A DNA stretch of 64,000 nt. It comes from Acidobacteriota bacterium (GTDB lineage: Bacteria; Acidobacteriota; Terriglobia; Terriglobales; Acidobacteriaceae). A model generated the notes under the pieces. That model saw nothing but the letters and a program-made list of their open reading frames with translations. It was not told the DNA's origin and did no database searches. A program made the translations under genes and the position numbers. How positions within the stretch are numbered: the first letter of the stretch is position 1; every line of letters begins with the position of its first letter. Location: NCBI GenBank assembly GCA_013289685.1, contig JABCZL010000007.1, positions 62,001 through 126,000 of the forward strand, in the 5' to 3' direction. This document shows positions 10,537 through 47,108 of this stretch, in pieces.

Positions 10537-10867
10537 GCGTGCACTCGCCTTTGCGCTCGATAGTGGCAGGCTCGAATCAGTTGCGGTCTTTTCGAAGTCA
10601 GGCTAGCGGGTGGGTTGCAAGGTGGGAACTGTCAAAAGCGACAGTCGCGCCGGTCCCTTCTATTTCCTTGTCCATTGCCCCGAAGAGTTGTGGTCGGACT
10701 GTTTCTTCTGACAGTAGTAGGACCGGCAATTCAAAGCTTAACTAGCGGCGATGGCGAGCGGGGCCGAATCATTCGTGCCGACGATTGCGAAGCACCGGGG
10801 TCACGTTGACCGCGACAGCCAAGGATATTCTGCAGCGCGCTGCACCTATGCCATAACGGCCTGAGTT
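10537..10867. other. Divergent intergenic region with two operator dyads
   Basis: This 331-bp region between the minus-strand FGE operon and the plus-strand membrane-protein gene holds the composite promoter at 10600-10643 and a second dyad TGTT-TCTTCT-GACA at 10700-10713. The second dyad has TTAACT 24 nt downstream on the plus strand, a weak hexamer, 125 bp before ATG 10868. I see no gene in it. Confidence 0.6.
10600..10643 (-). promoter_or_regulatory. Composite promoter: TGTC-N6-GACA dyad + 24 nt + TAGCCT
   Basis: On the minus strand, TGTC-GCTTTT-GACA (10643-10630) is followed after exactly 24 nt by TAGCCT (10605-10600), about 63 nt before the ATG of the FGE-like operon. Dyad sequence, spacing and hexamer match the other composite sites in this window. 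TAGCCT keeps the T, A and T of a -10 element, and the dyad centre would fall near -42. Confidence 0.75.
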
Positions 10868-11305
10868 ATGAAACATTTTTTCGATCACACGTTCCGGCCT
10901 TTCTTTATTGTTACGGGCATTGGAACTGCATTAGGCGGACTTGCCGCCCTTTGGCCCCGGTGGACAGCAGAGAAGGTCGTACTAATCCCGTATGACCAGG
11001 ACTACACCCTCATCCTGCAGCACTGGGGATTCATGCTCGGACTGATGGGTGTGTTCATGATCGTCGCCGCCTTTTGGACACCCTGGCGGAAACCGATTCT
11101 CAGCTTCGGCGTTTTTGAGAAAGCCTTCCTCGTTTACCTGGTCTTGACGAACGTAAGCCGCCCCTATGCGCGGGGGTTGTGGTTCGGTGCCGGGATGGAT
11201 GCCACGGTCGTTCTCTACACCGTAGTTTACTTCGGAGTGTGCGGTTTCAGGACTTCCTCCTTGCGATCCGACCGGGTTTTACACCAGGCAAAGAAGGCGG
11301 CGTGA
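10868..11305 (+). CDS. Small integral membrane protein
   Basis: 145 aa with four hydrophobic segments (around residues 12-30, 50-70, 78-97 and 108-125) and a basic C-terminal tail (DRVLHQAKKAA). I do not recognise the family; the pattern resembles small DoxX/DUF4345-like four-helix membrane proteins. It stands alone: the upstream neighbour is divergent and the next plus gene starts 124 bp later. Start ATG 10868 is the first in frame and gives a tail-less N-terminus (MKHFFDH). A degenerate operator dyad lies 155 bp upstream. Confidence 0.7.
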   Translation: MKHFFDHTFRPFFIVTGIGTALGGLAALWPRWTAEKVVLIPYDQDYTLILQHWGFMLGLMGVFMIVAAFWTPWRKPILSFGVFEKAFLVYLVLTNVSRPYARGLWFGAGMDATVVLYTVVYFGVCGFRTSSLRSDRVLHQAKKAA

Positions 11306-11428
11306 GGCAGGACATTTTGTCATAGCGCACTAAGGGTGATGGCAGTTTGTTGATTTGCTGACAGCCCACAGACGTTGAAATCAAAGTTGGGTATCGCGAG
11401 AAGAGAAGAGAGAAGAAGGAGGGCGATT

Positions 11429-11938
11429 ATGAAAACAAAGTTAGCGTGGTGCGCGATGCTGGTGTGCATCGCCACCACGATTGCCGTCGCGCAACAGGTT
11501 TCCGTCAACTACAACCACAGCCAGAGTTTTTCACAGTTTCATACCTACGCCTGGGGTTCCAACAACGCCAACAAGATCCAGAATTCGATACTGGCACAGG
11601 TAGCGGTGCAAGACATCGACTCGGCACTCCAAGGCAAGGGACTGCAAAAGGTGGAAGAAGGCCAGAATCCCGACCTCATCGTCACTGCCAACGGCGGGTT
11701 GAAAGAGCAGACCTCCTATAGCGCGTGGGGCATGCGGGGAATCGGCGGCGGCATGGGCGGCATTACTCCGGAGCAAAACGTTATCGGAACAATGATCGTG
11801 GACCTGTATGACGCGAAGAATCAAAGTCTGGTATGGCGTGGGATGGCCCAAAACAGCCTGAATAACAACGGAAGTAAGAATCAGCAGCTGGTCCAGAAAG
11901 CGGTCGTGAAAATGTTCAAACAATGGCCAGCGATGTAA
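11429..11938 (+). CDS. Secreted DUF4136-family protein
   Basis: About 169 aa. ATG 11429 is preceded by a strong AGGAGGG and gives a clear signal peptide (MKTKLAWCAMLVCIATTIAVAQQ). The mature part opens VSVNYNHSQSFSQFHTYAWG, the usual DUF4136 start, then has a Gly-rich loop (GIGGGMGGI), a GTMIVDLYDAKNQSLVWRG strand pair and a C-terminal helix. Such proteins are exported, often as lipoproteins, but this one has no lipobox Cys. Function unknown. It is followed by another small secreted protein. Confidence 0.85.
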   Translation: MKTKLAWCAMLVCIATTIAVAQQVSVNYNHSQSFSQFHTYAWGSNNANKIQNSILAQVAVQDIDSALQGKGLQKVEEGQNPDLIVTANGGLKEQTSYSAWGMRGIGGGMGGITPEQNVIGTMIVDLYDAKNQSLVWRGMAQNSLNNNGSKNQQLVQKAVVKMFKQWPAM

Positions 11939-12052
11939 GGCCATGCGGAGGTGGGATGCTCGGCGCCGGTGTCGTTGCCTGAACATCCTCCCTCCGAGAT
12001 CTGCAAAACGAGGCCGGTTTGCGTGTCTCGAACTGGAGCTGAGGAGAAAATC

Positions 12053-12343
12053 ATGATTAAGCGTTCCTACCTGTTCGCACTGGCGATTACGTTGCTTTAC
12101 GTAACTGTCGCGGTTGCTCAACATCCGGTGCTCGACGCCGTCGCCAACAAAGTCGTCCAGAAGTACCAGACGTCTACGTGCCAGCAGTTGATGCAGGCGA
12201 AGGCCCAGAACAAGCCTCCGTCAGCAGGAGAGCAGAAAGCCATGGAGATGTTGCGCACCGATCCGGCTATGCGGCATGAATTCGTCGGCATCGTCGCCGA
12301 TCAGGTCGTCGACAAGCTGATCCAATGCGGCATGATCCCATGA
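12053..12343 (+). CDS. Small secreted protein
   Basis: 96 aa. ATG 12053 follows a good GAGGAG ribosome site and gives a signal peptide (MIKRSYLFALAITLLYVTVAVAQ). The mature helical protein has two cysteines that could pair (TSTCQQLM and the C-terminal IQCGMIP), and a motif EQKAMEMLRTDPAMRHEFV. Similar small exported proteins recur in Acidobacteria, to my recollection, without known function. Upstream in-frame residues up to 11951 do not look like a leader. Confidence 0.75.
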   Translation: MIKRSYLFALAITLLYVTVAVAQHPVLDAVANKVVQKYQTSTCQQLMQAKAQNKPPSAGEQKAMEMLRTDPAMRHEFVGIVADQVVDKLIQCGMIP

Positions 12344-12424
12344 GGGAAGCGGCAGACGATCCCAAAACTCGCAGGAAAAATGTGAGACATCGCTCGTTCC
12401 ATGCCGTGTCAATGGAGCCAGCAA

Positions 12425-17313: not shown

Positions 17314-17584
17314 AGCATGGGGGAGAACGCGAAGGTTGGCGAAGGCGGTCGAGTTGTTTTCGCGAGCAAGCCCTGTCCCCACATCCAGTTTGGCGGATGC
17401 TACCAAAACGTCTCGGCAGCTTGGCAGCATTCCTGGTTGGGTAGACCGAAATAAACCAGGCGACAAGGCGGAGAGCCTGTCTCTTTTGACAGTTTTCGGC
17501 CCCCGTGTCGACCGATAGCCTGATGGAACGGCGTCGTAACTCGGCGTCTGGTGCCGGGTGTGCGAGAGATCGCAAGGAGGATGT
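17314..17584. other. Intergenic region with the PLD promoter
   Basis: 271 bp between the catalase-like and PLD-like genes. It holds the composite promoter at 17478-17521; I found no other gene or hairpin. Confidence 0.5.
17478..17521 (+). promoter_or_regulatory. Composite promoter: TGTC-N6-GACA dyad + 24 nt + TAGCCT
   Basis: TGTC-TCTTTT-GACA (17478-17491), 24 nt, TAGCCT (17516-17521), 63 nt before ATG 17585 of the PLD-like gene. This is an exact match to the consensus shared with the sites at 10600, 34656, 45546 and 47065. Confidence 0.78.
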
Positions 17585-18592
17585 ATGTCACGTTCCTTAA
17601 TCGTGATGCCCGACGATTCCGCCAAGCCGATACTTGATGCCATAAACCGCTCGACAAAGTCTCTGCGCGTCAAGATGTTCCTCTTCTCAGATCCATCGCT
17701 TTTGAAAGCTGTAATTGCGGCCAAGCAGCGCGGCTTGAAAGTACGGGTCATGCTGAATCCCGCCCGCCGCGACGGCGAATCGGAGAACCGCGAGTCCCGC
17801 AAGCAACTCGAGGCCGGGGGCGTCGAGGTCATCGACAGCAATCCCGAGTATGACGTGACTCACGAGAAGTCGATGGTGGTGGACGATACGACGGCGTTCG
17901 TAAAGTCGCTGAACTGGGAAACGAAAAACCTGACCGAAACCCGCGATTACGCCATCGTTACTTCTCATGCTCACGAAGTGGCTGAAATCGTCGAATGCTT
18001 CGAGGCGGACTGGGCTCGTAAGTCCTTCAAGGGGGACGCGCATTCTCACTTGATCTGGTGCTGCGGCAACGGCCGCGACCGCATCGCGCAGTTTATTGAC
18101 GATGCGAAGGACTCCATCTTTCTGCAGAATGAGCGTTACCAGGACCCAGTGATTATCGAGCGGCTGGTGCGGGCTGCGCGCCGCGGAGTGAAAATCCACG
18201 TCATGGCCCGTCCTCCTCATAAGCTCAAGAAGGACAAGCTTGTGGAAGCTGTGGGAGGCATGCGCATCATGCAAGACGTCGGCGTCAAGATTCACAAACT
18301 TAAACATCTCAAACTTCACGCCAAGATGCTTCTTGCAGATCATGCCCGCGCAATAGTTGGCTCTATCAATCTGGCGCCGGGGAGCTTTGATAGCCGCAGA
18401 GAATTGGCCATCGAGGTGCGAGACGCGGACGTGATCGAGCGCCTGACGAAAATTGCGCATCATGACTGGGAGAATTCACACCCTCTCGATTTGACGGACG
18501 AAGGACTGCTGGCGGAGTTCGAAGATCACAAGGTGAAGGGAACAGATGAATTAGCCCTTCACGACGATCAGGGCAAGCATAAGGTGGCATAG
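17585..18592 (+). CDS. Phospholipase-D-like (two HKD motifs) protein
   Basis: About 335 aa; ATG 17585 follows AAGGAGG. Two HxKx4D motifs are complete: His93/Lys95/Asp100 (HEKSMVVDD) and His245/Lys247/Asp252 (HAKMLLADH), each followed by the Gly/Ser-Asn strand (KSLNW, VGSINLAPGSFDSRREL). This is the two-domain layout of cardiolipin synthases and PLD-type hydrolases or transferases. There is no membrane helix or signal peptide, so it is probably soluble. It is immediately followed (2 bp) by a membrane-protein gene, probably translationally linked, and is preceded by a composite promoter. Confidence 0.9.
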   Translation: MSRSLIVMPDDSAKPILDAINRSTKSLRVKMFLFSDPSLLKAVIAAKQRGLKVRVMLNPARRDGESENRESRKQLEAGGVEVIDSNPEYDVTHEKSMVVDDTTAFVKSLNWETKNLTETRDYAIVTSHAHEVAEIVECFEADWARKSFKGDAHSHLIWCCGNGRDRIAQFIDDAKDSIFLQNERYQDPVIIERLVRAARRGVKIHVMARPPHKLKKDKLVEAVGGMRIMQDVGVKIHKLKHLKLHAKMLLADHARAIVGSINLAPGSFDSRRELAIEVRDADVIERLTKIAHHDWENSHPLDLTDEGLLAEFEDHKVKGTDELALHDDQGKHKVA

Positions 18593-23597: not shown

Positions 23598-24242
23598 ATG
23601 ACCAGCCGCCCCCGCATTTTGATTGCTGACGACCACACTCTAGTTGCCGAGTTGTGCAAAAGATTGCTTGAGACGGATTTTGAGATCGTCGGGGTGGTCG
23701 GCGATGGCCGCGCCCTGGTGCACGCTGCCGCCAAATTGAAACCGGAAGTAGTCGTGCTCGATGTCGCGATGCCGATCCTGAATGGTTTGGATGCTGGGCG
23801 GCAGGTGAAAGAAATGTTGCCGGCCGTCAAGCTGGTCTATCTCACCATGAATCCCGACGCAGACGTGGCTGCCGAAGCCTTTGCGCGCGGAGCCTCCGGC
23901 TACCTGCTTAAAACCTGTGCCGCTGCTGAAATGGTGCTTGCGGTTCGCGAAGTGTTACGCGGCAAAACGTATGTATCTCGAGCTTTGTCGCAAGACGCGA
24001 TCGATTGTTTACGCTGGCAACACAAGAAGTTGGTCCAGGAAGATGAACGCCTCACCGTGAGGCAACGTGAAGTGCTGCAGTTGTTGGCCGAAGGGAAAGT
24101 GATGAAGGAGGTTGGCGCCATCCTGAACATGTCGACCCGCACGGTTGCGTATCACAAATACAGGATGATGGAAGTGCTTGGCGCCAAGAGCAGCGCCGAA
24201 CTGGTCAAGTACGCGGTCAGGACCCACATGGTAGCTGCTTAG
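23598..24242 (+). CDS. NarL-type response regulator, copy 1
   Basis: 214 aa. Receiver residues 5-120 with acidic pair Asp11-Asp12, phospho-acceptor Asp55 (VLDVAMPILNG) and Lys105 (YLLKT); LuxR-type HTH at about 148-205 (LTVRQREVLQLLAEGKVMKEVGAILNMSTRTVAYHKYRMMEVLG). It should be a DNA-binding partner of a HisKA_3 kinase such as those at the start of the window. A second copy at 33979-34623 is near-identical over the whole length. It is preceded by a small CxxC gene and overlaps by 4 bp at its 3' end with a convergent receiver-only gene. Confidence 0.95.
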   Translation: MTSRPRILIADDHTLVAELCKRLLETDFEIVGVVGDGRALVHAAAKLKPEVVVLDVAMPILNGLDAGRQVKEMLPAVKLVYLTMNPDADVAAEAFARGASGYLLKTCAAAEMVLAVREVLRGKTYVSRALSQDAIDCLRWQHKKLVQEDERLTVRQREVLQLLAEGKVMKEVGAILNMSTRTVAYHKYRMMEVLGAKSSAELVKYAVRTHMVAA

Positions 24243-24952: not shown

Positions 24953-25972
24953 GTGGGCCCCTTTCTCCGTTGCAAGCTACGCATTATCGCTCTGAGTCGA
25001 AGAGCCTTCTCCCCTCTCTTTCTTGCCTGTTTGGCGGTCTTCGTTTTCACTTCGCCGTATGCGCGGGCGCAGTCCCTGGATGACGTGCACGTGGAACCTC
25101 GTCAAAAGCCAGGGGTTCCCACTCTAGAGGCCCGTACCAAACCATTTCGAGTTTCTGTCGACCTGGTTCTGGTCCCCGTGACCGTGACCGACGCCATGAA
25201 CCACCCGGTCACGGCTCTGCAGAAACAAGACTTTGCGCTCTACGAAGAAGAGAAACCTCAGCAAATCCAGTACTTTTTCGAGGATGAGGAGCCTCTTTCC
25301 GTGGCCGTGCTTCTCGATGTCAGCTCGAGCATGCGCGACAAAATCGATACCGAACGGGATGCGCTGGAGAGTTTCTTCAGGAATGCCAACCCGCAAGACG
25401 AATACTTTGCGATTACTTTCTCGGACCGTCCACGACTCTTGGCTAGCGCGACCAGTTCGATCGACGAGATGCAGCGGCAGTTTGCGCTAGCGGAACCTCG
25501 CGGGCCGACTGCCATGCTGGATGCGATCTACTTGGCCGAGGACCAGTTGCACGCGGCAAAGTACAAGCGCAGGGCGATCGTCATCTTTTCCGACGGTGGC
25601 GATAACGTGAGCCACCACAGCTACAGGGAAATAAAAGGCTTAGTGAAGGAAAGAGACGTTGAGGTGTATGCCATCGGGCTGTTTGATACCCCTGTCTTCG
25701 GCCCGGTCGAAGAAAAGCTGGGCAAGCAGTGGTTGAGCGGGATCACCGATTGCACGGGAGGCCGAACCATTGCCCTGCAGAATCGAACAAAAGTTTCCGA
25801 TGCCGCTGCCGAACTGAGTCGGGAAATGCGCAGTCAATATGTACTCGGGTATCATCCCGCCGTGAGTCGAGACGGAAAATGGCGAAGGATAAGTGTGCGC
25901 GTGGCATCGGCAACTAAACCCCAACGGCTGCACGCTTTTTACAAGAAAGGGTACATCTCACTAGACAAATAG
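24953..25972 (+). CDS. Secreted VWA-domain protein (VWFA-related)
   Basis: About 340 aa with an N-terminal hydrophobic export signal (SPLFLACLAVFVFTSPYARAQS). A beta-domain (FRVSVDLVLVPVTVTDAMNHPVTALQKQDFALYEE) precedes a full VWA domain with all MIDAS parts: DVSSSM, Thr in PRGPTAMLDA, and Asp in IFSDGGDN. This is the VWFA-related domain family common in Acidobacteria, thought to work in protein adhesion or assembly outside the cytoplasm. The start is uncertain: GTG 24953 gives a normal signal peptide, while the frame is open to ATG 24752. It ends 67 bp before a convergent barrel gene. Confidence 0.85.
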   Translation: MGPFLRCKLRIIALSRRAFSPLFLACLAVFVFTSPYARAQSLDDVHVEPRQKPGVPTLEARTKPFRVSVDLVLVPVTVTDAMNHPVTALQKQDFALYEEEKPQQIQYFFEDEEPLSVAVLLDVSSSMRDKIDTERDALESFFRNANPQDEYFAITFSDRPRLLASATSSIDEMQRQFALAEPRGPTAMLDAIYLAEDQLHAAKYKRRAIVIFSDGGDNVSHHSYREIKGLVKERDVEVYAIGLFDTPVFGPVEEKLGKQWLSGITDCTGGRTIALQNRTKVSDAAAELSREMRSQYVLGYHPAVSRDGKWRRISVRVASATKPQRLHAFYKKGYISLDK

Positions 25973-26039: not shown

Positions 26040-26720
26040 CTACTTGGAGGCGCTCCCCCCCCAGCCAATCACGATTCCACTCTTTAAACGAAAGCTGTTC
26101 TGATTGTTGTTGTTGTTGCAGACAGAAAGAGCACAGCTGTTGCCAAAGCGGGTGTAGAGATACTCAGCCTGGACGGGCCGTATGGAGAATTTCTTGTTAA
26201 CTTTGATGTCAAACCCTCCTCCCACCGTCATAGCGAAAGCGTTCTTGGAGTAAGTGCCGCTGCCAACGGCTGTCAGGCAAGTATTCGCACCGCTCTTGCA
26301 ACTGGCCGAGAGCCGGTCCCCTCCGAAGTTGAGCTCGAAAAATGGTTGGAAGGCGCTGGCGCTTCGAATGGTAATCCGCGGCCCGAACAAATAGGTAAAC
26401 TGATTCCCGGTAATTGTATTGCCCAAGCCGATTGTGTTACCGAAAAATCTGCAGCCGCCCAGATCCGCTGCGATGCCGAGCAAGCTGGTTAAGTTCAAGG
26501 CGATCGTGCCCCCACCGCCGGCACAGTTAAAGCTATTTCCGCCGGTTACCTGCACTGGTGGGCCACCGCCCGGTGGTACGATGAAGAACGAATGGTCGAG
26601 ATTGGGGCTGCTGCGGATGAACATGAAGGCCGGTGATGTTTCGACCTTCGGAAACTCTTGAGACAGCGCCACGCCTGCTGTGAGCAACATCAAACCCACC
26701 ACAACACAATATTTACGCAT
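26040..26720 (-). CDS. Secreted outer-membrane-like beta-barrel protein
   Basis: About 226 aa. ATG 26720 follows GAGGAGAAG and gives a signal peptide (MRKYCVVVGLMLLTAGVALSQ). Mature strands include EVETSPAFMFIRS, GIAADLGGCRFFG, FTYLFGPRITIRS, PFFELNFGGD and a last GIVIGWGG. The pattern fits a small OmpA-like or porin-family beta-barrel. Four cysteines lie in loops and may pair. Upstream in-frame codons do not resemble a leader. No family beyond outer-membrane beta-barrel is recognised. Confidence 0.78.
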   Translation of the reverse strand: MRKYCVVVGLMLLTAGVALSQEFPKVETSPAFMFIRSSPNLDHSFFIVPPGGGPPVQVTGGNSFNCAGGGGTIALNLTSLLGIAADLGGCRFFGNTIGLGNTITGNQFTYLFGPRITIRSASAFQPFFELNFGGDRLSASCKSGANTCLTAVGSGTYSKNAFAMTVGGGFDIKVNKKFSIRPVQAEYLYTRFGNSCALSVCNNNNNQNSFRLKSGIVIGWGGSASK

Positions 26721-27219
26721 TTCTCTTCTCCTCTCGAATTGAGAACTAAGTTCGAAAATCAACGGAACGTTCCTTGATCGCCCGCAATCTGTCCCGAGTG
26801 CACAAAAATGCGGAGCAGGTTACGTTGCTTTGTGAGAGCGTCCGTTTTGACGCTCTTCGCGTGCGCTCCGGAGAGCAACTCACAAAGGAAATGGTAGGAG
26901 ACCTTCTCGTCAGCGAATACTGGCAAAAGTAACAGTTAGGATTTGGGAGGAAGAATTAGCCTTGCGGCCAGCACCGCAGGATGGCGCCGGAGGCGCTGTA
27001 GGCACGGGTTCCCGGGAGATCGCTCGCCAGGTCTGACATGGGCTTTCCCGCGAGCTGTAACTTCTACTAGTGTGCGGCCATCAGCGCACCTTTTAAGCTT
27101 TTGTAACCATCGAATTGCTCAAGATTGGCGAAAACGATTCTGCACCGTCACGAGGAAACTCTTGTTGGACTAAATGGCTCGCCAAATTGTTTTCGTAGCG
27201 AGACCTCAGTGGTGTCAAA
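26721..27219. other. Intergenic region with a candidate operator
   Basis: 499 bp between divergent genes. TGGC-AAAAGT-AACA at 26921-26934 is a weak dyad, and TAGCCT occurs at 26957-26962, 22 nt after it, facing the pseudo-receiver gene. An inverted GAGAGCGTCC/GACGCTCTTC-type repeat lies around 26834-26860. I see no convincing gene. Confidence 0.4.
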
Positions 27220-28140
27220 ATGAGTGCCCTTCCCAGCATCGAAATGCGTCCGTTCCCGATCCGCACCGCCCTGGTGGTCGGTGGAGATTCTGAGATTCAA
27301 GCGCGGCTGCGGCAAGTCCTCGAACCCAACGTATGGGCGATCCAGCACACAACCGACAACGCGTCTGCCCTTGCCCTGGCTCAAAGGAAAGGCTTCGATC
27401 TGATCCTGACCAGCGAGAAGACCTCGGGCAAAGAGGATATCGAACTGCTTCGCAAGATCCGGCGCATCCGTCCCCATACGCGCCTGATCATTCTGGCGGA
27501 CGAAAGCACGCCAGCAGATGTAATCACGTCGATGCGCGAGCGGGCGTTCAGCTATTTTTCCAAACCATTTTCCTTGGACGCCCTCGCCATCATGGTGCAA
27601 CATGCGATCGAACAACCCTGCTGGGATGACGGGATCGATGTAGTGTCGGCTACGCCCGAATGGATCCGCATACGCGCTCGCTGCGACATGAAAACCGCGG
27701 AACGTGTGTTGCAATTCTTCGATGAGATCGCCGAATTGCCTGATCCGGAAAAAGGTGAGGTCGGCATGGCTTTCCGTGAGATGCTCACAAACGCCATCGA
27801 ACACGGCGGGCGCCTCGACCCCAGCCAGCAAGTCGAGATTTCCTACTTGCGCGCCAGGCACATGGTCATCTGCCGCATCAGTGATCCCGGCGAAGGCTTT
27901 ACGCTGGACGAGATTCCCCACGCCGCCATCGCAAACCCAGAGGATGATGCGTTGCGCCACGTCGCGTATCGAGAGGCATCCGGCATGCGGCCTGGCGGCT
28001 TTGGCGTTCTTCTTGCCCAGCGGTTCGTCGATCAGCTCGTCTACAGCGAAAAAGGAAATGAGGTGCTACTCATCAAATACCTCGACTTGGCGCCGCGAGC
28101 GAAGAAAGAAGAAATAAAACCAAATAACGCTCCCGGGTAG
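27220..28140 (+). CDS. Pseudo-receiver fused to an RsbW-type ATPase domain
   Basis: 306 aa. Residues 15-130 have the receiver fold, but the phospho-acceptor position is Ser65 (LILTSEKT in place of LILxD) and the acidic pair is GD, so it cannot be phosphorylated in the usual way; Lys115 (SKPFS) remains. Residues about 145-295 are a HATPase_c_2 domain of the anti-sigma/serine-kinase type: Glu187 and Asn191 in FREMLTNAIEHGG, DPGEGF at 222-227, and GGFGVLLAQRFVDQL. It is likely an anti-sigma-like or protein kinase module whose receiver half is a fixed or ligand-binding switch. No STAS partner is next to it. A weak operator lies 260 bp upstream. Confidence 0.87.
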   Translation: MSALPSIEMRPFPIRTALVVGGDSEIQARLRQVLEPNVWAIQHTTDNASALALAQRKGFDLILTSEKTSGKEDIELLRKIRRIRPHTRLIILADESTPADVITSMRERAFSYFSKPFSLDALAIMVQHAIEQPCWDDGIDVVSATPEWIRIRARCDMKTAERVLQFFDEIAELPDPEKGEVGMAFREMLTNAIEHGGRLDPSQQVEISYLRARHMVICRISDPGEGFTLDEIPHAAIANPEDDALRHVAYREASGMRPGGFGVLLAQRFVDQLVYSEKGNEVLLIKYLDLAPRAKKEEIKPNNAPG

Positions 28141-31100: not shown

Positions 31101-31315
31101 GGGCGCAGGTCGGGTATGACGTAAATCCCGTCCTGGTTGGTAGTAGTGGAAGTCGAGACGTTAGTCTCGATGTTGGTGATCTCGCACCCGGCGCCGACGA
31201 TCACAGCGCCGCTCAGGTCCGCCACCCTGCCGGAAATCCGGGCACTTTCTGTTTGTGCAAGGCCCACCACTGTCGTCAGAAGAAAAATCAGGACGAGCAC
31301 AGGGCACTTCATCAC
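28199..31315 (-). CDS. TonB-dependent receptor, Oar-like, with carboxypeptidase-regulatory domain
   Basis: 1038 aa with signal peptide (MMKCPVLVLIFLLTTVVGLAQ). Residues 25-110 are a carboxypeptidase-regulatory-like beta-sandwich (ISGRVADLSGAVIVGAGCEI, GIYVIPDLRPATYRL), then a plug (VVDDQFVQNMPLNGRSFQSL) and a large outer-membrane barrel ending PRSAQFTVKLIF with the usual terminal Phe. This is the Oar-like TonB receptor family expanded in Acidobacteria, thought to take up large substrates such as glycans or peptides; no ligand can be inferred. It follows an ECF sigma and anti-sigma pair on the same strand. A perfect operator dyad lies 128 bp upstream (31443-31456). Confidence 0.93.
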   Translation of the reverse strand: MMKCPVLVLIFLLTTVVGLAQTESARISGRVADLSGAVIVGAGCEITNIETNVSTSTTTNQDGIYVIPDLRPATYRLTIQKEGFRTVVQPSLQLYVQDAVNENFTLAIGPTSESITVVNFGLQTDSASVSTVVDDQFVQNMPLNGRSFQSLIAVVPGIVFTSSSVEGAGQFSVNGQRSDANHFTVDGVSANFSSAPQCCLSQSLGGAIPGWTSGGGTNGLVSVDAVQEFRIQTSSYAPEFGRTPGAQISIVTKSGVNQFHGTAFDYLRNDFFDARNYFDVPPQIKPPLRQNDFGGVLGGPIIKNKTFFFFSYEGLRLTQPETAQGAFYTESARAAVAPVYQPIIDALPLPTGPPIAPCDNITNPCMANLSADFSDPSNINATSIRIDHSVNSKISLLARYNHAPSYDTFRAWEQVEYDHVNTDTLTAGATITFTPTKLNDFRANWSRSTGTSINVLTDFDGAVPPPASAFFPPGSPYSFSHSQAVIAGVFDGTLYDNIQRQLNFVDTFSWIIGVHQLKFGVDYRRLNPTGGESTNYVAGLGSAGFQNLVLGDVGGIMLGDKYPLSVNINNYSLFAQDTWRMTNRLTLTYGLRWEINPAPESASSGEPLYAVHGIFDSNPLALVREAPWRTRFSNFAPRIGAAWQLTPETVVRGGFGLFYDLGYGNVGDAAGGYPYFRIAFNPQPPGTAFNLNSSAFQPIPFSTTVKVNQGGLIGADRNLQVPVTLEWNAAIEWELGANQRLTATYVGADARRLLREDTIAPQGLFNGPSNQAIWNGGYAHYEALQLQFQRRMSRSLQALVSYTLAKSSDVSSSDATGSVAPSVSQIVLPAMSPSDFDIRQSIAGAVSYEVPAPAWGRASNAILKGWAVDGLVRASSPPPLNVTVSNQTGSVGYYLTLANVVPGQPSWIPDPTQPAGRALNPAAFSLPPPGVQGDYPRNSLRSPYGIDQTDLALRRRFNVTERIKLDVRAEYFNVFNHPMFGAPGAAEPYSGLPGFVAFGKVDTTTNEALGGGGTVGGQSPLYGLGGPRSAQFTVKLIF

Positions 31316-31442
31316 AACTCTCCGCTAGTGCGTGACGGAGCGCAACTAGTTCCGCTCCTTGCTCTGGAGCAAAGAAGAATATCCTTGTGTGTGAGTCTGA
31401 TTCAAGCCGCCAATAACGAGGCTGGAAGTTCCTGGGATCCAC

Positions 31443-31456
31443 TGTCAGAAATGACA
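31443..31456. promoter_or_regulatory. Perfect TGTC-N6-GACA dyad upstream of the TonB receptor
   Basis: ACTGTCA-GAAA-TGACAGT, a perfect 7-bp inverted repeat whose core is TGTC-AGAAAT-GACA. It sits between the anti-sigma gene and the receptor gene. Read towards the receptor, the hexamer 24 nt on is CGTTAT, not a good -10, so it may act as an operator with different geometry. Confidence 0.6.
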
Positions 31457-31528: not shown

Positions 31529-32764
31529 CTACGGGTGATTGGCCTCACCCATGTAGGCATAGAGCATCTTCTGTCCGGTGGGTTGCTTACCGCCGGCCGA
31601 GGGCTCGACCGTAACAAACACTGAACTGATTTCCTTCACGAGCTCCGGGTTCTCCACTTTCAACACCCAACGCCCGTGTGCTTTCGCATCCACGTGCAGC
31701 AAACCCAAGCTGCGCGGCGAGTTCTTTTCTGCCTCCGGCACTGCCCAGACCTGGAAGTTACGCTTTGCATTCAACGCCCTGTCTTCATTCAAATCGAAGG
31801 CGTAAAAGGTGAGCGATTTGCCTTCGGTCAGAAAAACGCGTCCAAAGGCCGGGCTGAGGTTACCATTCGGGTCAGTGTCGCGGACATCGATGACATGCAA
31901 CTGGCGCGACGCCATCAGTTCGCGGACATCCTTACCAGCCGCTGCGAGCTGCCGTTCCTGATCGAGAGTAGCACTCGCGATTCGCAACTTGTTCGTCAGT
32001 TCCGTGATACGAGTCTGCTGCTCCACTAGGGAGGCTTCGTCGTTGATGCGCAATTGGCTGCTACGCGCCGCTTCGTCTCTGGCTTCTGCCAGCAGTTTCT
32101 CCTGGTTCCGGGGTTCCTCCAATAATTGCGCGTCATGACTGGAGGATCGCACGGCCTCTCCTGCCTGTTCGCTATGGCGTAGCAGGTTATCGGCGCCTAA
32201 TTGGGAGCGCAAATTCTTAATCTCTCGCTGGCTTGCCACGACCGACTCGTTCAACCGAGACAGGCTCGCGGTAAGCGCGGAGTTCTCCCGTGCAAGCTCG
32301 GCGATCTGCTGTGCGTGAGCGGCATCCTTCGTCCGCGCCGTGTCCGGCGTCGCACGGAAATGGTAAACCGTGAGGCAGACCGCAACCACCACTACGGCCG
32401 CAATCGGGGCCAGCATTGTGGCGGGACCAAAGTACCACGGACCCGATCGAGAGGAAGTCTCAATTTCGCGTGAGAAAACCACGCCCTCGGCTCGCGCCCG
32501 ACGAAGGAAGCGCTGCCGCGAATAAGGCAACGGTCTCGCCCTCATCTCCCGCAGTTTCTGCCGGAAAGTTCCCTGGGCTTGCGGTAACTCCCTGGTGACG
32601 AGACTGGACACCGCCTGGTACTCGGAGCGGCATTCGCCGCATTCCTTCATATGGGCCTGGAACTCAACAAGCTCCGCGCCCTCCAGGAGTCCGCCGGCGG
32701 CAAGCGCACAAAGCGCTTCAAACTGCTCGTGCTCGGGCAATCCCCTCCGCTCCGGCTCAGGCAC
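31529..32764 (-). CDS. Anti-sigma factor: zinc-finger, membrane helix, coiled coil, RskA-like domain
   Basis: 411 aa. The N-terminal cytoplasmic part has the ZAS motif H-x3-C-x2-C (AHMKECGECRSEY, residues about 33-45). A membrane helix (about 117-137, MLAPIAAVVVVAVCLTVYHF) leads to a periplasmic coiled coil (about 145-265: LARENSALTASLSRLN, NLRSQLGADN) and a C-terminal RskA-type anti-sigma-K domain (ending SVFVTVEPSAGGKQPTGQKML). The gene overlaps the ECF sigma gene by 8 bp, so the two are co-made. Regulated proteolysis or release of the sigma factor is expected for the family. The long coiled coil is longer than usual. Confidence 0.9.
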   Translation of the reverse strand: MPEPERRGLPEHEQFEALCALAAGGLLEGAELVEFQAHMKECGECRSEYQAVSSLVTRELPQAQGTFRQKLREMRARPLPYSRQRFLRRARAEGVVFSREIETSSRSGPWYFGPATMLAPIAAVVVVAVCLTVYHFRATPDTARTKDAAHAQQIAELARENSALTASLSRLNESVVASQREIKNLRSQLGADNLLRHSEQAGEAVRSSSHDAQLLEEPRNQEKLLAEARDEAARSSQLRINDEASLVEQQTRITELTNKLRIASATLDQERQLAAAGKDVRELMASRQLHVIDVRDTDPNGNLSPAFGRVFLTEGKSLTFYAFDLNEDRALNAKRNFQVWAVPEAEKNSPRSLGLLHVDAKAHGRWVLKVENPELVKEISSVFVTVEPSAGGKQPTGQKMLYAYMGEANHP

Positions 32765-33978: not shown

Positions 33979-34623
33979 GTGTCCAACCGCTCACGCATTT
34001 TGATTGCCGACGACCATACGCTGATTGCGGAGCTGTGCAAGAAACTTCTCGAAACCGACTTTGATGTGATCGGAATCGTGAGCGATGGCCGCGCCCTGCT
34101 CCGTGCTGCCCGCGAATTGAAGCCGGATGTGATCGTGGTAGACGTTGCCATGCCCATCCTCAACGGGTTGGACGCGGGGCAGCAGGTGAAAGAAATGTTG
34201 CCTGCTGTAAGGCTCGTCTATCTCACCATGAATCCCGACGCAGACGTGGCCGCCGAAGCCTTTGCGCGCGGTGCGTCCGGCTATCTGCTTAAGACTTGTG
34301 CCGCGGCTGAGATGGTGCTTGCGGTTCGCGAGGTGTTACGGGGCAAATCGTACGTATCCCGGGGCCTGTCGCGAGACACGATCGATGTTGTCCGCTGGAG
34401 CCATAAGAAGTTGATCAATGCAGATGAACGCCTGACCCCGAGGCAGCGTGAAGTACTGCAGTTGCTAGCCGAAGGAAAGGTGATGAAGGAAGTTGGCGGC
34501 ATCCTGAACATGTCGACCAGGACCGTGGCCTACCACAAGTATCGGATGATGGAAGTGCTTGGCGCCAAAAGCAGCGCGGAGTTGGTCAAGTACGCTGTCA
34601 GAAACCACATGGTAGCCGCTTAG
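33979..34623 (+). CDS. NarL-type response regulator, copy 2
   Basis: About 214 aa from GTG 33979, placed 9 nt after GAGGAGG and aligned to the start of copy 1. The receiver keeps DD, phospho-acceptor Asp (VVDVAMPILNG) and Lys (YLLKT); the LuxR HTH (LTPRQREVLQLLAEGKVMKEVGGILNMSTRTVAYHKY) differs from copy 1 at few positions, so the two probably bind the same or overlapping DNA sites. Upstream in-frame codons to 33892 are probably not translated. The Crp/Fnr gene follows 189 bp later with its own composite promoter. Confidence 0.94.
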   Translation: MSNRSRILIADDHTLIAELCKKLLETDFDVIGIVSDGRALLRAARELKPDVIVVDVAMPILNGLDAGQQVKEMLPAVRLVYLTMNPDADVAAEAFARGASGYLLKTCAAAEMVLAVREVLRGKSYVSRGLSRDTIDVVRWSHKKLINADERLTPRQREVLQLLAEGKVMKEVGGILNMSTRTVAYHKYRMMEVLGAKSSAELVKYAVRNHMVAA

Positions 34624-34655: not shown

Positions 34656-34699
34656 TGTCAATACAGACAGTTGCATCCCTTGTTGTCCCAAGGTAGCCT
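34656..34699 (+). promoter_or_regulatory. Composite promoter in front of the Crp/Fnr-type gene
   Basis: TGTC-AATACA-GACA (34656-34669), 24 nt, TAGCCT (34694-34699), 114 nt before ATG 34813. The match to the other composite sites is exact in both elements and in spacing. If the Crp/Fnr protein binds this dyad, its gene is self-activated. Confidence 0.75.
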
Positions 34700-34812: not shown

Positions 34813-35496
34813 ATGATCAATCCTCGATCAGCATCGAAGGCTGCCAGAACCTCCAGCTTCTTGACCGGTCTTGAGCAACCTGCGATGCGGGCCATTCTTG
34901 CCGCAGCCAAAATCCGGCGGGTTTCTGCCAAGCACAACATCACCTCCATGGGTCATCGGGCTACTCATTTCTTCCTTATTCAAAGCGGCCGAGTACGCTT
35001 TTACCACCTCACCAAACAGGGCCAGTTAGTTCTGCTGGCATGGCTGGTGCCGGGGGACGTCGTCGGGTTGGTGGCCCTGCTGACGAGTCCGTTCGCCTAT
35101 ATGGCATCCGCAGAAGCCACCTCCGACTGTGAACTCCTGGTCTGGAACCGCTCCGTCATACGGAAGTTGACGGCCCGCTATCCCCTGCTCGGTGAAAATG
35201 GTCTGCACATAGCTCTTCGCTACTTGCGAGACTACATTGACCGTCATGTCGGTCTGGTTACCAAGACTGCTGAGGAGAGGCTGGCAGCAGCTCTACTCAA
35301 TCTCGGGGACCAATCCAACGAGGTTCATCCCGGCGGAATCGAAATCCGCGCTACCAACGATCAACTCGGAGCCTTGGCTGATATCAGCCCGTTTACCGTC
35401 ACCCGCGTGCTAAGAAAGTGGGTTCGTGCCGGAATTCTCTCCAAAGGACGCGGCCGAGTCCTTCTCCATGCTCCCGAAGCGCTCATGATTGATTAA
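34813..35496 (+). CDS. Crp/Fnr-family transcription regulator
   Basis: 227 aa. Residues about 20-140 are a cNMP-binding beta-roll (FFLIQSGRVRFYHLTKQGQLVLLAWLVPGDVVGLVALL), then the long dimer helix (about 135-165) and a Crp-type winged helix (about 175-220: TNDQLGALADISPFTVTRVLRKWVRAGIL). There is one Cys only, so no FNR-type iron-sulfur cluster. In the recognition helix, SPFTVTR aligns with SRETVGR of CRP: the Arg is kept but the Glu that both CRP and FNR use is Phe, which predicts a non-CRP half-site. Its own upstream region carries a TGTC-N6-GACA composite promoter. Ligand unknown. Confidence 0.92.
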   Translation: MINPRSASKAARTSSFLTGLEQPAMRAILAAAKIRRVSAKHNITSMGHRATHFFLIQSGRVRFYHLTKQGQLVLLAWLVPGDVVGLVALLTSPFAYMASAEATSDCELLVWNRSVIRKLTARYPLLGENGLHIALRYLRDYIDRHVGLVTKTAEERLAAALLNLGDQSNEVHPGGIEIRATNDQLGALADISPFTVTRVLRKWVRAGILSKGRGRVLLHAPEALMID

Positions 35497-41257: not shown

Positions 41258-42751
41258 ATGATCAGGACATTTGCGAAACAGCTTACGTCAATGACGCTGT
41301 CCTTGCTGTTGGTCATCGGCACGGCGCCTTTGGGAACTGCTCAAGAATCCGGTTCGACGGGATATTCGGGACAAGGTGTGCCGTTGACTGCGGAAGAGTT
41401 ACAGCAACTGGTAGCTCCAATCGCGCTTTACCCGGACTCCCTGGTAGCGCAGATTCTTGGAGCTGCAACCTTTCCGGACCAGGTTGCCGCCGCTGCCAGC
41501 TGGCTGCAGCAGAACAGCAATCTCACCGGCCCGACCCTGATGGAGACGGTTAATACTCAATCGTGGGACCCGAGTGTGAAAGCTCTCACGCAATTTCCCT
41601 CGGTGCTCGCCAACCTGGCGACCAACCTTAGTTGGACCTCTGCCTTAGGAGAGGCCTATCACACCCAAGCCGCAGATATCATGTCCGCGGTTCAGTTTTT
41701 GCGTGCGAAAGCATTAGCAGCAGGCAACCTGAAGTCGGGTTCACAGCTCACGGTTGTGCAACAGTCACCGCAAGTCATCGTGATTCAACCGACGAATCCA
41801 CAGGTCGTGTACGTCCCGATGTACAACCCGGCAGTGGTCTACGGCTATCCTTATGTGACGCCAGGTTACAGCACGGCTGCTGTGGCAACGACTGCCGTTC
41901 TTGCTTTTGGAGTTGGCATCGCAGTGGGCGCGATGATGAGCAACGGTTGTTGCGCCTGGGGATATAGCAGCTGGAATTGCGGCTGGCACGGCACCACCAC
42001 GGTGGTGTATCGCGGAGGAGCGTACTACGGAAACAGCGCCTGGCATGGCGGCTATTACGGTGCAGGCCCACCACGCGTCGCGCACTATGGCACCAGCTAC
42101 AATCCATCAACCGGGGCCTATGCCAGGGGTGGCACCGTCTCGAACGGCTATGGCAGTGCGAGCGCCGCTAAGGGATACAACCCTTCGACTGGCACTTACG
42201 CCCGTGGCGCCACCGTCTCGAACGGTTACGGTAGTCAGAGCGCCGGTCAAGCCTACAACCCAAGGACCGGGGCCTACGGTCAGACTCAACAAGGTTCCAA
42301 TGCCAATGGAAGCTGGGGGAGTTCGACGGTTTCGAAGAACGGCAACACGGCCTACAGTCAGCATCAAACGACTTCCCAGGGAACTACCGGGTCCGTGAAA
42401 ACTTCAAACGGTGGCTCGGCCTATGGCGCGTCGGGTAAATACAACAGTGGCGCTGTTGCTCAGACCGCAAACGGCAACAAATACGCGTCAGTGAATGGAA
42501 ACAAGTACAGCAATACAGGGAGCGGTTGGAGCGGCAATTCCAACAACACTCAGAAATACGGCTCCAGTTACTCAGGCCAAAGCGCATATAAGAGCAACCC
42601 GTCTTCCAGCGGCTGGGGATCGCAGGAGAAGAGTGGCGGATCATCGGCCTTCAGCAGCGGCAGCGGAGGTTGGGGATCCAGGTCGGAGAGTGCTCGCGGC
42701 TCGGCAAGCAGGGGTGGGGGCGGAGGTTGGGGTGGCGGCGGCCGCAGGTGA
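41258..42751 (+). CDS. DUF3300 protein with Gly/Ser/Tyr-rich repeat tail
   Basis: 497 aa. A signal peptide ends near GTAQE; residues about 40-200 match DUF3300 (LTAEELQQLVAPIALYPDSLVAQILGAATFPDQV, FPSVLANLATNLSWTSALGEAY, QPTNPQVVYVPMYNPAVVYG). A hydrophobic stretch (about 208-230) and a Cys-rich turn (NGCCAWGYSSWNCGWHG) lead into a disordered C-terminal half with imperfect repeats YNPSTGAYARGGTVSNGYGS, three copies at about 284-350, then a Gly/Ser/Asn-rich tail ending GGGGGWGGGGRR. The tail could be adhesive. The DUF2950 gene follows 76 bp later, a common pairing. Confidence 0.9.
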   Translation: MIRTFAKQLTSMTLSLLLVIGTAPLGTAQESGSTGYSGQGVPLTAEELQQLVAPIALYPDSLVAQILGAATFPDQVAAAASWLQQNSNLTGPTLMETVNTQSWDPSVKALTQFPSVLANLATNLSWTSALGEAYHTQAADIMSAVQFLRAKALAAGNLKSGSQLTVVQQSPQVIVIQPTNPQVVYVPMYNPAVVYGYPYVTPGYSTAAVATTAVLAFGVGIAVGAMMSNGCCAWGYSSWNCGWHGTTTVVYRGGAYYGNSAWHGGYYGAGPPRVAHYGTSYNPSTGAYARGGTVSNGYGSASAAKGYNPSTGTYARGATVSNGYGSQSAGQAYNPRTGAYGQTQQGSNANGSWGSSTVSKNGNTAYSQHQTTSQGTTGSVKTSNGGSAYGASGKYNSGAVAQTANGNKYASVNGNKYSNTGSGWSGNSNNTQKYGSSYSGQSAYKSNPSSSGWGSQEKSGGSSAFSSGSGGWGSRSESARGSASRGGGGGWGGGGRR

Positions 42752-44835: not shown

Positions 44836-44879
44836 TGTTTGTTTTGACAGTTATCCGTTCCGGTGGTGTCCACTATGCT
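44836..44879 (+). promoter_or_regulatory. Composite promoter: TGTT-N6-GACA + 24 nt + TATGCT
   Basis: TGTT-TGTTTT-GACA (44836-44849), 24 nt, TATGCT (44874-44879), 53 nt before ATG 44933. It keeps the exact spacing; one half-site base and two hexamer bases differ from the commonest form. Confidence 0.7.
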
Positions 44880-44932: not shown

Positions 44933-45364
44933 ATGCTCAGAGTAATGTTGGCGGTCTTCGTTCTCGTTTCGGCGGGTCTGGCGCAATCCTCCTCAGACGG
45001 ATCATTCTCAGTGCACCATTCCAAGAATGCGAAGTTTACCCTCAGCAAGTCCCAGATGCATGACGCGGAGAGTCTCTACCAGAGCGCGTGCGCAGCGGTT
45101 CGGCAGAACTTTCACAGTACTACTGAATTGCATCCGCACTTCACAGTAGTCATCGGAGCTGACCGAAATGAAGTCCACTCAGGCGGTATGAAGGTGGACG
45201 GCGGCTTGGAGATTTGGATGACGAAGTGGAACCCAACGACATTTGCGCAGGGCGTCGTGGTTCTCGCGTTCCAACAGTTGCTTACCCGAGATGCGATCAC
45301 GCAATTGGGCGACCGGGCCATCCGCTCCACCAACGCTACGGTCGATGTCGCCGAACTCAAGTGA
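44933..45364 (+). CDS. Small secreted protein, paralog 1
   Basis: 143 aa with signal peptide (MLRVMLAVFVLVSAGLAQS). The mature part SSSDGSFSVHHSKNAKFTLSKSQMHDAESLYQSAC, then HPHFTVVIGADRNEVHSGG, EIWMTKWN and a C-terminal TNATVDVAELK align with paralog 2 along the whole length, with about two thirds of residues the same by eye. The fold mixes strands and helices and has one Cys. Each paralog has its own copy of the composite promoter, so they are separately but similarly controlled. Family not recognised. Confidence 0.82.
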   Translation: MLRVMLAVFVLVSAGLAQSSSDGSFSVHHSKNAKFTLSKSQMHDAESLYQSACAAVRQNFHSTTELHPHFTVVIGADRNEVHSGGMKVDGGLEIWMTKWNPTTFAQGVVVLAFQQLLTRDAITQLGDRAIRSTNATVDVAELK

Positions 45365-45545
45365 GCTCCAGGCACGGCCTCCGCGCGGTCGCCGTTCACA
45401 TGATTGTACCGGTGTGTCCTACCCTGCAACCCTTGCAAGCTTGAGAAAAAAGCGTGCAACTGCCAACAACAATCGCGCGTCTCACGAGAGCCCCGTGGTG
45501 CGCGGGCCAAGTGCAGGAGCCGAGTGCAAGAGTAAGATGACACAC

Positions 45546-45589
45546 TGTCTGTCTTGACAGTTGTCAACACCGCTATCGCTGACTAGCCT
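45546..45589 (+). promoter_or_regulatory. Composite promoter: TGTC-N6-GACA + 24 nt + TAGCCT
   Basis: TGTC-TGTCTT-GACA (45546-45559), 24 nt, TAGCCT (45584-45589), 51 nt before ATG 45641. Exact consensus. The right half also starts the palindrome TTGACAGTTGTCAA. Confidence 0.78.
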
Positions 45590-45640
45590 GTGCTTGAATG
45601 CGTGGAACGATTACGTGGCACGCAGAAAAGCAGGGTCCAA

Positions 45641-46075
45641 ATGTGGCGAATAACATTGACACTTCTTGTGCTCGCTTCGGCAGCTCTGGCGCAGTCCTCC
45701 TCAGACGGATCGTTTTCGGTGCGCCATTCCAAAAAAGCGAGCTTCTCCCTCAGCCCGGCGCAGATGCGTGAGGCAGAGAATCTCTACCGAAGCGCGTGCG
45801 CGGTGGTAGAACACGATTTTCACAGTGGCGCCGGCCAATTGCATCCGCGCTTAACGGTTGTCATCGGTGCCACCCGCAACGAAGTTCACGCGGAGAACAC
45901 TGAAGTCCATGTCGGAAACGAGATCTGGATGAAGAAGTGGGAGCCAACGCTGTTTGCTCAAGGAGTCGTCGTTCTCGCGTTCGGCCAGATGCTAACGGTC
46001 GATGTGATCAAGCAATTGGGCAACCGCGCCGTCCGCTACAGCAACGCTACCGTGGATGTCGCTGAACTGAAGTAG
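45641..46075 (+). CDS. Small secreted protein, paralog 2
   Basis: About 144 aa from ATG 45641, which gives the signal peptide MWRITLTLLVLASAALAQS aligned with paralog 1; an ATG-less extension to 45590 would fall on the promoter. Shared blocks are SSSDGSFSVRHSKKASFSLSPAQM, HPRLTVVIGATRNEVHAE, EIWMKKWEPT, FAQGVVVLAF and SNATVDVAELK. The conserved VVIGAxRNEVH segment suggests a common ligand or partner, but the role is unknown. Tandem duplication included the promoter. Confidence 0.82.
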   Translation: MWRITLTLLVLASAALAQSSSDGSFSVRHSKKASFSLSPAQMREAENLYRSACAVVEHDFHSGAGQLHPRLTVVIGATRNEVHAENTEVHVGNEIWMKKWEPTLFAQGVVVLAFGQMLTVDVIKQLGNRAVRYSNATVDVAELK

Positions 46076-46272
46076 GGTCTACGATCACCCACGGCGCGTG
46101 GTGTCCACCGAGCCCGCGCTGCCGCCGTTCACACCCGGCGATCTGTGCTCAACCGATCGGAAGCGAATGGATGTCGTCCCGCGAAAATAGTCGGATCGAA
46201 TTCCATACAGGCTTCCAGAACACTGGAGCTGATCTCTTGCTTTTGAACGAGGTCGGATCCTCAAGTGGTCAT

Positions 46273-46842
46273 TCAACTACCGTAAATCGGGGGCTGCCTT
46301 CTAATCTTCGCCATCGCAGGAGTGATGCCCGCGAACTGCCACAGTGCATAGGTTCGCGCCTCACGTACATCTCGTGGCGTGCGGCCAAGCAGAAGAGCGC
46401 ATTCATGCTCGGAGTATCCTTCTAAGACAGAGATCACAAAAACGAATCGCTGAAGCGGCGGGGCCAATCTGGCCACGGCATCGATGACAGGATGTACTCG
46501 TGATTCGACACCGAGTTCGCGCCCGGCGTCTCGTTTTCCACCGCTTGGGGTTGACGCCAGAAACACACGACGAATGGCGTTGATGATCAAGCACCGTTTA
46601 TTCCAGGAGCGCTCCCACCCCTTAAAAACCCCATTCGCTGTTATGGCGTCATCAACAGTCGCAACGAAACATTGCTCCGCCTCGGCGTAACTGCCGGTCA
46701 GCAAAAAAGCAAGCAGGTATAAAGGTTGCAGGTCCTCCACAAAGTTTTCGCAAAGGTCGGAGGATGTAGCGTATCCGGCCCGGACTTGTGCGCTTTGTCT
46801 GGATCGAATGCTATACATGGTGACCTCACTTTCGCGGGTCAC
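46273..46842 (-). CDS. ECF-sigma-like protein with shortened region 2
   Basis: 189 aa (or 181 from ATG 46818). A weak region 2 (LQPLYLLAFLLTGSYAEAEQCFVATVDDAI) is followed by WNKRCLIINAIRRVF and a region-4-like helix set (VIDAVARLAPPLQRFVFVISVLEGYSEHECALLLGRTPRDVREARTYALW). The arrangement fits the sigma-70 ECF family, but region 2.4 and the HTH recognition helix (TPRDVREARTY) are divergent, so it may have lost promoter recognition. It is divergent from a VWA gene; a perfect 18-bp palindrome upstream gives a minus-strand composite promoter (46996-47039). Confidence 0.68.
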   Translation of the reverse strand: MTRESEVTMYSIRSRQSAQVRAGYATSSDLCENFVEDLQPLYLLAFLLTGSYAEAEQCFVATVDDAITANGVFKGWERSWNKRCLIINAIRRVFLASTPSGGKRDAGRELGVESRVHPVIDAVARLAPPLQRFVFVISVLEGYSEHECALLLGRTPRDVREARTYALWQFAGITPAMAKIRRQPPIYGS

Positions 46843-46995
46843 GGTAGAGTAAGAATCGTCTCATCAGCTTCCTCCTAAGATCTCTGCGCGATCATCGCCG
46901 TCACAGTTCACCAGAAATTCGCGGCAGCACGAAACCCGCAGTACTCAGTGCGATGTTTCAGAGAGAGTCGGGAGTCCGACTTTGAATACCTTTCG

Positions 46996-47039
46996 ACACT
47001 ATCCGAAGGATGCCGCGGGGATACCTGTCATTAATGACA
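46996..47039 (-). promoter_or_regulatory. Composite promoter towards the sigma-like gene
   Basis: TGTC-ATTAAT-GACA (47039-47026 on the minus strand), inside a perfect 18-bp palindrome, then 24 nt and TAGTGT (47001-46996). Spacing is identical to the plus-strand sites; the hexamer keeps TAnnnT. Confidence 0.7.
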
Positions 47040-47064
47040 GGAAGTGCTTTACCCAGCGTTAGGC

Positions 47065-47108
47065 TGGCACTTTTGACAGTCGTCAGTCGCTGATTCGATT
47101 GCTAGCCT
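47065..47108 (+). promoter_or_regulatory. Composite promoter towards the VWA gene
   Basis: TGGC-ACTTTT-GACA (47065-47078), 24 nt, TAGCCT (47103-47108), 203 nt before ATG 47312 and 114 nt before the small reading frame at 47223. Left half-site has one mismatch. Confidence 0.7.

Follow-up and report, generated by a model that had tools for sequence, protein, structure and literature searches.

The window analyzed here is a 64,000-nucleotide stretch from a soil Acidobacteriota bacterium (positions 62001-126000 of contig C7 in the 6.85-Mb, 48-contig source genome, G000). It carries a recurrent composite site in which the dyad TGTC-N6-GACA is followed, 24 nt later, by a -10-like TANNNT hexamer, and this common upstream switch is found at some dozen genes that lie together in one chromosomal region. 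We propose that the composite is very probably the promoter of a two-component regulon, for which the predicted activator is a NarL/LuxR-type response regulator (RR) encoded at 33979..34623 (+) and not the Crp/Fnr-type protein encoded at 34813..35496 (+). What the computation shows directly is that the sites exist, keep a fixed spacing, lie between genes and go with the RR and its recognition helix. The original prediction, made from the window by itself, had assigned the sites to a single Crp/Fnr-type activator: its recurrent operator, the fixed distance and one shared activator as the natural reading all stand, but the choice of Crp/Fnr as that activator is not supported by the present evidence; the gene at 34813 is more plausibly one of the regulon's targets.

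All seven composite sites proposed for the window were recovered at their positions and on their strands. The hexamer is exactly TAGCCT in five: at 10600..10643 (-), preceding an FGE-like operon (9295-10536, -); at 17478..17521 (+), preceding a PLD-like gene (17558-18592); at 34656..34699 (+), preceding the Crp/Fnr gene; at 45546..45589 (+), preceding a small gene (45590-46075); and at 47065..47108 (+), preceding the gene at 47312-48325. The other two have TATGCT (44836..44879, +, before 44933-45364, a small paralog of the gene at 45590) and TAGTGT (46996..47039, -, before a sigma-like ORF at 46273-46842), and the dyad departs by one base from the consensus at 44836 (TGTT) and 47065 (TGGC). 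The six exact TGTC-N6-GACA dyads are likewise present where the prediction had located them; it had expected about one per window by chance, 100 shuffles give a mean of 0.81 (largest 4, none reaching 6), and all six lie outside the genes predicted by our own gene-calling script, as it had claimed.

Across the source genome, the extended form TGTCN6GACAGT gives 17 exact strand matches, or 13 places in 6.85 Mb, six of which cluster within one 67-kb stretch of C7; TANNNT stands at the fixed distance in five of these six and in one of the seven elsewhere (C8:204923-). Upstream of the window on the same contig, at a distance of 15-22 kb, there are four more composites (C7:40374+, 43178+, 44180+ and 47218+), of which one is exact and three depart from the 10-base core at a single position. 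Next, 19 composites, all of them from relatives, served to train a weight matrix that was applied to the source contig; counts here and below are oriented matches scoring >=9, such that one palindrome can score on both strands. In 204 kb of C7 this yielded 28 matches, a number in which some dyads count once for each strand; 27 fall between 40 and 116 kb. The control stretches (20 x 20 kb, 400 kb in total; three further right in C7) yielded three matches. With the dyad part alone, C7:38-116 kb has 7.2 oriented matches per 10 kb, as compared to 0.40 for the other fetched parts of C7 and 0.37 for the control, or 33 distinct dyads in the 78 kb of the block versus 13 in the 400 kb of control. Thus, the genome-wide enrichment that the prediction had implied takes the form of a concentration of operators in a block of ~75 kb (about C7:40-116 kb). 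The lone composite outside the block (G000:C8:204923, L013) reads TGTCAGCTCTGACAGT, with the hexamer TAACCT.

The matrix also brought out further sites within the window. That at 26891..26934 (-), TGTTACTTTTGCCAGT ... TACCAT, scores 25.4 and precedes an outer-membrane beta-barrel gene (26040-26762, identified by Pfam); at 6626..6669 (-), a good dyad with the hexamer TCGACT scores 23.2 and precedes 5837-6556; and at 53126..53169 (-), a dyad with two mismatches followed by TAATTT scores 21.8 and precedes 52482-53009. An exact dyad at 31413..31456 (-), with CGTTAT at the hexamer position and a score of 16.4, precedes a TonB-dependent-receptor-like gene (28199-31312, by Pfam).

The refined form of the dyad is the palindrome CTGTCA-N4-TGACAG, after which a T is usual; across relatives, conservation hardly extends beyond the palindrome and hexamer, and is low in the bases 5' of the hexamer. 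The fixed spacing recurs in stretches of other genomes: in 20 stretches outside the training set, TANNNT stands at offset 24 in 24 of 112 oriented dyads, with each of the other offsets from 2 to 49 accounting for four or fewer. The same offset is found in 11 of 30 dyads (<=1 mismatch) of the block itself, in 11 of 61 dyads in G015 and G034, and in eight of 40 dyads in the named loci, where offset 25 accounts for five; in all, the spaced pattern is seen in genomes of at least two families. The dyad centre lies 31.5 nt before the hexamer, that is, at about -43.5 if the hexamer spans -12 to -7. As to placement, in 51 loci whose sequence is 80% predicted coding, the dyad centre of 211 of the 217 full sites (score >=14) lies outside genes predicted by a simple codon-score script with approximate borders, the matrix having been trained on some of the same loci, and a same-strand gene starts between -60 and 450 bp downstream of 178. 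With one duplicate locus (L287) removed, the figures are 215 sites, 209 intergenic and 176 with a downstream gene; merging the strands as well leaves 187 of 192 distinct dyads intergenic.

The candidate regulator has Response_reg and GerE domains above the Pfam cut-offs (PF00072, 79.4 bits; PF00196, 57.6 bits), the expected receiver Asp (VDVAMP) and the recognition helix STRTVAYHKYRM, and is nominated by its cross-genome association with the sites. A second copy, 85% identical and with the same recognition helix, is encoded at 23598..24242 (+). The candidate partner, nominated by its Pfam domains and neighbourhood conservation, is a histidine kinase with PAS domains and HisKA_3 (48612..51572, +; PF07730, 38.8 bits), 14 kb from the RR in this genome. 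The Crp/Fnr-type protein has cNMP_binding and HTH_Crp_2 domains above cut-off and a paralog in the same genome at C7:55801.

The evidence that sets the RR apart from Crp comes from stretches of up to 20 kb fetched around the homologs of each. The 20 RR loci without Crp (L255-L274) hold 198 matches (116 distinct dyads) in 392.7 kb, as against 25 matches (21 distinct) in 259.3 kb for the 14 Crp loci without RR (L275-L288), eight of these being in L287, and 15 matches (13 distinct) in the 20 own-genome control loci (400 kb); the difference between RR and Crp loci gives p = 2.6e-5 in a rank test. Several handles denote the same records (L118/L098, L119/L099, L120/L100-L101) or overlapping ones (L123/L286, L124/L287, L128/L289), and each locus was counted once in the density sums. 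Nine of the RR loci (L266-L274) come from genomes that hold RR and Crp apart and were chosen regardless of motif number. Ten genomes carry RR and Crp on separate contigs or far from each other, and in every one of them the density on the RR side exceeds the Crp-only average: in matches per 10 kb, 5.0 vs 0.5-1.0 in G289, 10.0 vs 0.5 in G383, 6.0 vs 0 in G313 and 2.0 vs 0.5 in G353, with small margins in G301 (1.0 vs 0.5), G337 (3.0 vs 2.0), G341 (2.4 vs 1.5), G350 (7.0 vs 5.2) and G423 (4.0 vs 2.6, the latter being one match in 3.9 kb). In the tenth genome, G285, the RR contig (L295) has 8.0, one Crp contig (L296) 7.6 and a second Crp contig without RR (L297) none; at its start, L296 carries the truncated GerE end of an RR (62-63% identity over 60 residues). 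Three loci (L289, L290 and L298 of G423) hold both RR and Crp, and L298 is hence not informative for this comparison. The RR loci of genomes without an exact motif (L291-L294) have 0-2 matches each.

A concordant picture emerges from co-occurrence across 399 genomes of the class (RR at E<=1e-50, Crp at E<=1e-25), of which 80 encode RR, 19 encode Crp and 52 have one or more exact copies of CTGTCAN4TGACAG. Of the 25 genomes with two or more exact motifs, 22 encode the RR and 12 encode Crp; by group, such genomes make up 12 of 18 with both regulators, 10 of 62 with RR only, none of the one with Crp only and three of 318 with neither. The control pattern, the motif read backwards, occurs 0-2 times per strand in any genome. 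The motif-carrying genomes with RR and without Crp include G429, which is a single 6.27-Mb contig, and the RR contigs of G010, G021 and G006 are site-rich though these genomes are without a close Crp (completeness 72% and 76% for G010 and G021, such that chance loss of Crp is possible, and 91% for G006).

The recognition helix provides a further link. In loci of at least 4.8 kb, RRs with the helix RT[VI]A[FYA]HKY come with 2.4-18.5 matches per 10 kb, and loci having only TVEFHKY, TVEFHKH, TVMFHKY or TVETHRS (L202, L289/L128, L272 and L208) with 0.6-1.9; loci with PGTVAFHKY or PGTVAFQKY are mixed (0-8.3). From an alignment with NarL, the best solved relative of the RR, and the known NarL-DNA contacts, the varying residues presumably fall at DNA-contacting positions. 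Kinase homologs (E<=1e-20, some partial) are present in 19 of 34 RR loci and in none of the 14 Crp or 20 control loci; in nine loci the kinase match ends within ~100 bases before a same-strand RR, which has the main helix in five (L257, L258, L265, L274 and L269). Across all loci, a site lies within 400 bp upstream of 18 of 34 main-helix RRs as compared to 185 of 634 other genes.

Several observations weigh against assigning the site to the RR. Neither RR gene of the source genome has a site within 400 bp upstream. On the side of the helix, the RRs of L291 and L292 (PGTVAFQKY) retain the A, F and Y and have no matches; L256 (TVRFHKY) is dense at 7.5 per 10 kb, its genome also having the main helix type; L235, with the variant TAEFHKY, has two matches in a short 3.6-kb locus; and the RR adjacent to the kinase is of another helix type in four of the nine loci (L255, L256, L268 and L272). 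Of the 80 RR-encoding genomes, 58 have no more than one exact motif; 32 of these belong to family f6, with RRs that are 42-50% identical. Conversely, G252 has nine exact motifs and no RR at the cut-off, perhaps on account of an assembly gap, the RR being present in two genomes of the same genus. Moreover, the co-occurrence counts are not corrected for shared ancestry, the matrix training loci were first reached via Crp, and L255-L265 were picked from genomes with at least two motifs, so that their density is partly selected.

These points have to be set beside what the other explanations can account for. It is unlikely that the activator is a Crp/Fnr protein (that at 34813 or the paralog at C7:55801) acting from the dyad on class II promoters, despite several features in favor of this reading: a crp gene lies downstream of the site in four loci of four genomes (C7, L099, L130 and L131), close to half of the motif-rich genomes encode the protein, the placement of the dyad ~31.5 nt before the -10 would fit a class II activator, and the homologs keep the Crp recognition helix (P/L-FT[VA][ST]R). 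There are also dense Crp loci whose fetched stretch lacks a full-length RR (L124/L287, L125, L132 and L119), though most of these are short or cut contigs. However, the sites are dense near RR homologs and near background at most Crp homologs without RR; as a group, the latter owe about a third of their matches to L287, where crp itself has a site. L122, L126 and L129 are Crp loci devoid of matches although their Crp has the same helix; 13 of the 25 motif-rich genomes, including the single-contig G429, lack Crp; and the sole genome of the 399 with Crp and without RR (G306) has no motif. The two Crp contigs of G285, the dense one opening with a cut RR and the RR-less one empty, point the same way. 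In a search upstream of 20 crp genes for a palindrome specific to the Crp clade, nothing recurred beyond the doubled locus L123/L286 (L128 has an RR 9 kb away). We reject Crp/Fnr as the binder, as the operators do not track Crp either across genomes or in its vicinity.

It is improbable that some other DNA-binding protein of the neighbourhood (a sigma-like factor, an anti-sigma system or an unlisted regulator) reads the site. The islands do hold other regulators, such as the sigma-like ORF at 46273-46842 with its upstream site, an RskA/zf-HC2 gene (31529-32764) and receiver-only proteins; but the only family common to all 35 RR neighbourhoods is the receiver/RR family, for which these loci were chosen, and the next one reaches eight of 35. 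Further, a 6-N4-6 palindrome with a separate -10 differs from an ECF-type promoter. Least credible is the notion of a mobile repeat family or of an artefact of composition: the repeats are concentrated where GC is lower (0.56-0.58) than on either side (0.59-0.61), but the GC of the block lies inside the range of the control stretches, little is conserved across relatives besides the palindrome and hexamer, the sites are intergenic and oriented toward genes, and the spaced pattern recurs across families.

Returning to the RR as activator, we advance the following plausible mechanism. The PAS/HisKA_3 sensor kinase would phosphorylate the NarL/FixJ-type RR with its LuxR-type (GerE) helix-turn-helix, a dimer of which would bind the 6-N4-6 palindrome CTGTCA-N4-TGACAG. 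From this position, which would replace the -35, the bound RR might touch RNA polymerase 24 nt before the TANNNT -10, and thereby activate envelope, outer-membrane and stress genes clustered with it, and in some genomes probably crp too.

The palindrome shares the CT-N12-AG frame common to the lux box. StyR/TodT-type regulators of the same family are reported to recognize ATAAACN4GTTTAT (PMC5874301), which has the 6-N4-6 layout, and the lux box is reported to be centred at -42.5 (PMC3376562), near the -43.5 estimated here; on account of these parallels, we file the RR as NarL/FixJ-type and regard the site as its probable operator. The StyR/TodT/TutB/TmoT group (PMC5874301) resembles the present system in its receiver and GerE domains and, if the present assignments hold, in its PAS-containing kinase partner and 6-N4-6 palindromic operator. 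In contrast to that group, the half-site here is CTGTCA, the sites belong to tens of promoters and not to one catabolic operon, and the setting is Acidobacteriota; the helix was set beside that of NarL only. LuxR quorum-sensing activators share the GerE DNA-binding domain and, as predicted here, the position over the -35 (PMC3376562), whereas the RR has a receiver domain in place of the autoinducer domain. DevR/DosR of Mycobacterium tuberculosis (PMC3029386) is a NarL-family regulator of a multi-promoter regulon with a start-proximal site overlapping the -35; here we see mostly a single palindrome at a fixed distance, and a different operator. The likeness to Crp/Fnr class II promoters lies in a dyad upstream of the -10 with no need for a -35, and in the presence of the Crp gene within the island; however, the sites do not follow that gene across genomes. 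The distance from dyad to -10 is also ~2 nt longer than in E. coli class II promoters, class II dyads being centred near -41.5.

Acidobacteriota are abundant in soil, and few mapped regulons are known from them. If correct, the present proposal would offer a handle on their gene regulation, consisting of an operator and its spacing rule, a candidate regulator recognizable by its helix and a candidate kinase. Further, the transcription-factor gene nearest to the sites is probably the wrong culprit here, and cross-genome co-occurrence can separate two neighbouring regulators. Among the matches listed for the operator as text in the open-licence literature, only ACTGTCA occurs and none is on this subject; likewise, among those listed for Acidobacteria regulators, no title concerns this regulon. 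The nanoxia transcriptome of Acidobacterium capsulatum (PMC11636273) is reported to include a sensor kinase induced 84-fold, to which no link from the present system could be made.

The putative targets are rich in outer-membrane genes and in genes of unknown function (DUF3300, DUF4136). In the island of the source genome, the genes behind sites encode a sulfatase, a radical-SAM/SPASM enzyme, FGE-like, PLD-like, DUF1622 and DUF1232 proteins, the outer-membrane barrel and the TonB-dependent-receptor-like protein. In other genomes, full sites precede the RR itself and genes for DUF3300, DUF4136, sortase, MscS-like channel and HlyD-like proteins, and in L131 genes for YceI, carbonic anhydrase and ion channels stand behind dyads with a hexamer deviating from TANNNT. 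Two sulfatases, the radical SAM/SPASM enzyme, which we take to be of the anaerobic sulfatase-maturase type, and the FGE-like protein form one block (C7:44298-51118 and window 9295-10536), with a composite site upstream of three of the four genes. In G015 (L118:166-9215), Crp is the last gene of an operon that further comprises genes for serine dehydratase, transporter, acetate kinase and glycyl-radical (pyruvate-formate-lyase-like) enzymes, a fermentation-type cluster; Crp may thus relay the signal to anaerobic metabolism.

Whether the system travels as a unit is a more tentative matter. It is conceivable, though we hold it to be rather doubtful, that the two-component system, its kinases and at least a dozen operator promoters move jointly between Acidobacteriota as a genomic island, constituting a portable regulon. 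Homologs of the RR (E<=1e-50) are patchy in the genus, being found in five of 36 relatives (G006, G010, G015, G021 and G034), and acquisition of the block by horizontal transfer is possible. In steps of 12 kb its GC is 0.558-0.579 as against 0.59-0.61 in the flanks; however, stretches of other contigs gave control values of 0.541-0.605 (mean 0.582), which makes the block ordinary in GC for this genome, and as this control gives no backing we slightly lowered our estimate for a portable regulon. No attachment or flanking direct repeats of >=15 bp were found between C7:37.5-41 kb and 105-126 kb. Were the regulon indeed portable, an envelope-remodelling programme would arrive pre-wired, with few operators elsewhere in the chromosome. 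At the left edge, a tRNA-Met gene (C7:38631-38706; L032:19131-19206) lies 1.6 kb from the first site of the block, followed by a PAS/HATPase histidine-kinase-like protein (C7:39055-40158; L033:58-1158), whose gene is preceded by a site at C7:40344- (score 20.5, hexamer CAGCAT).

The gene labels originally given to the window fared unevenly. Those of the FGE, PLD and Crp genes are upheld by Pfam, and the two small genes are indeed paralogs. The sigma-like ORF is below threshold, with a region-4 match of 20.5 bits against a cut-off of 25.7, and is absent from our script's gene calls; 47312-48325, labelled as a VWA gene, has no Pfam domain at E<=0.01 and hence no VWA, the VWA gene of the window being located at 25031-25969. 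A DUF3300 protein is encoded at 41258..42751 (+) with no full site directly upstream, and its family recurs in six of 35 RR neighbourhoods. Finally, a protein combining a receiver with HATPase_c_2 (27220..28140, +) has a weak site before it at 27056+ (score 14.6), and its family has an upstream site in other genomes.

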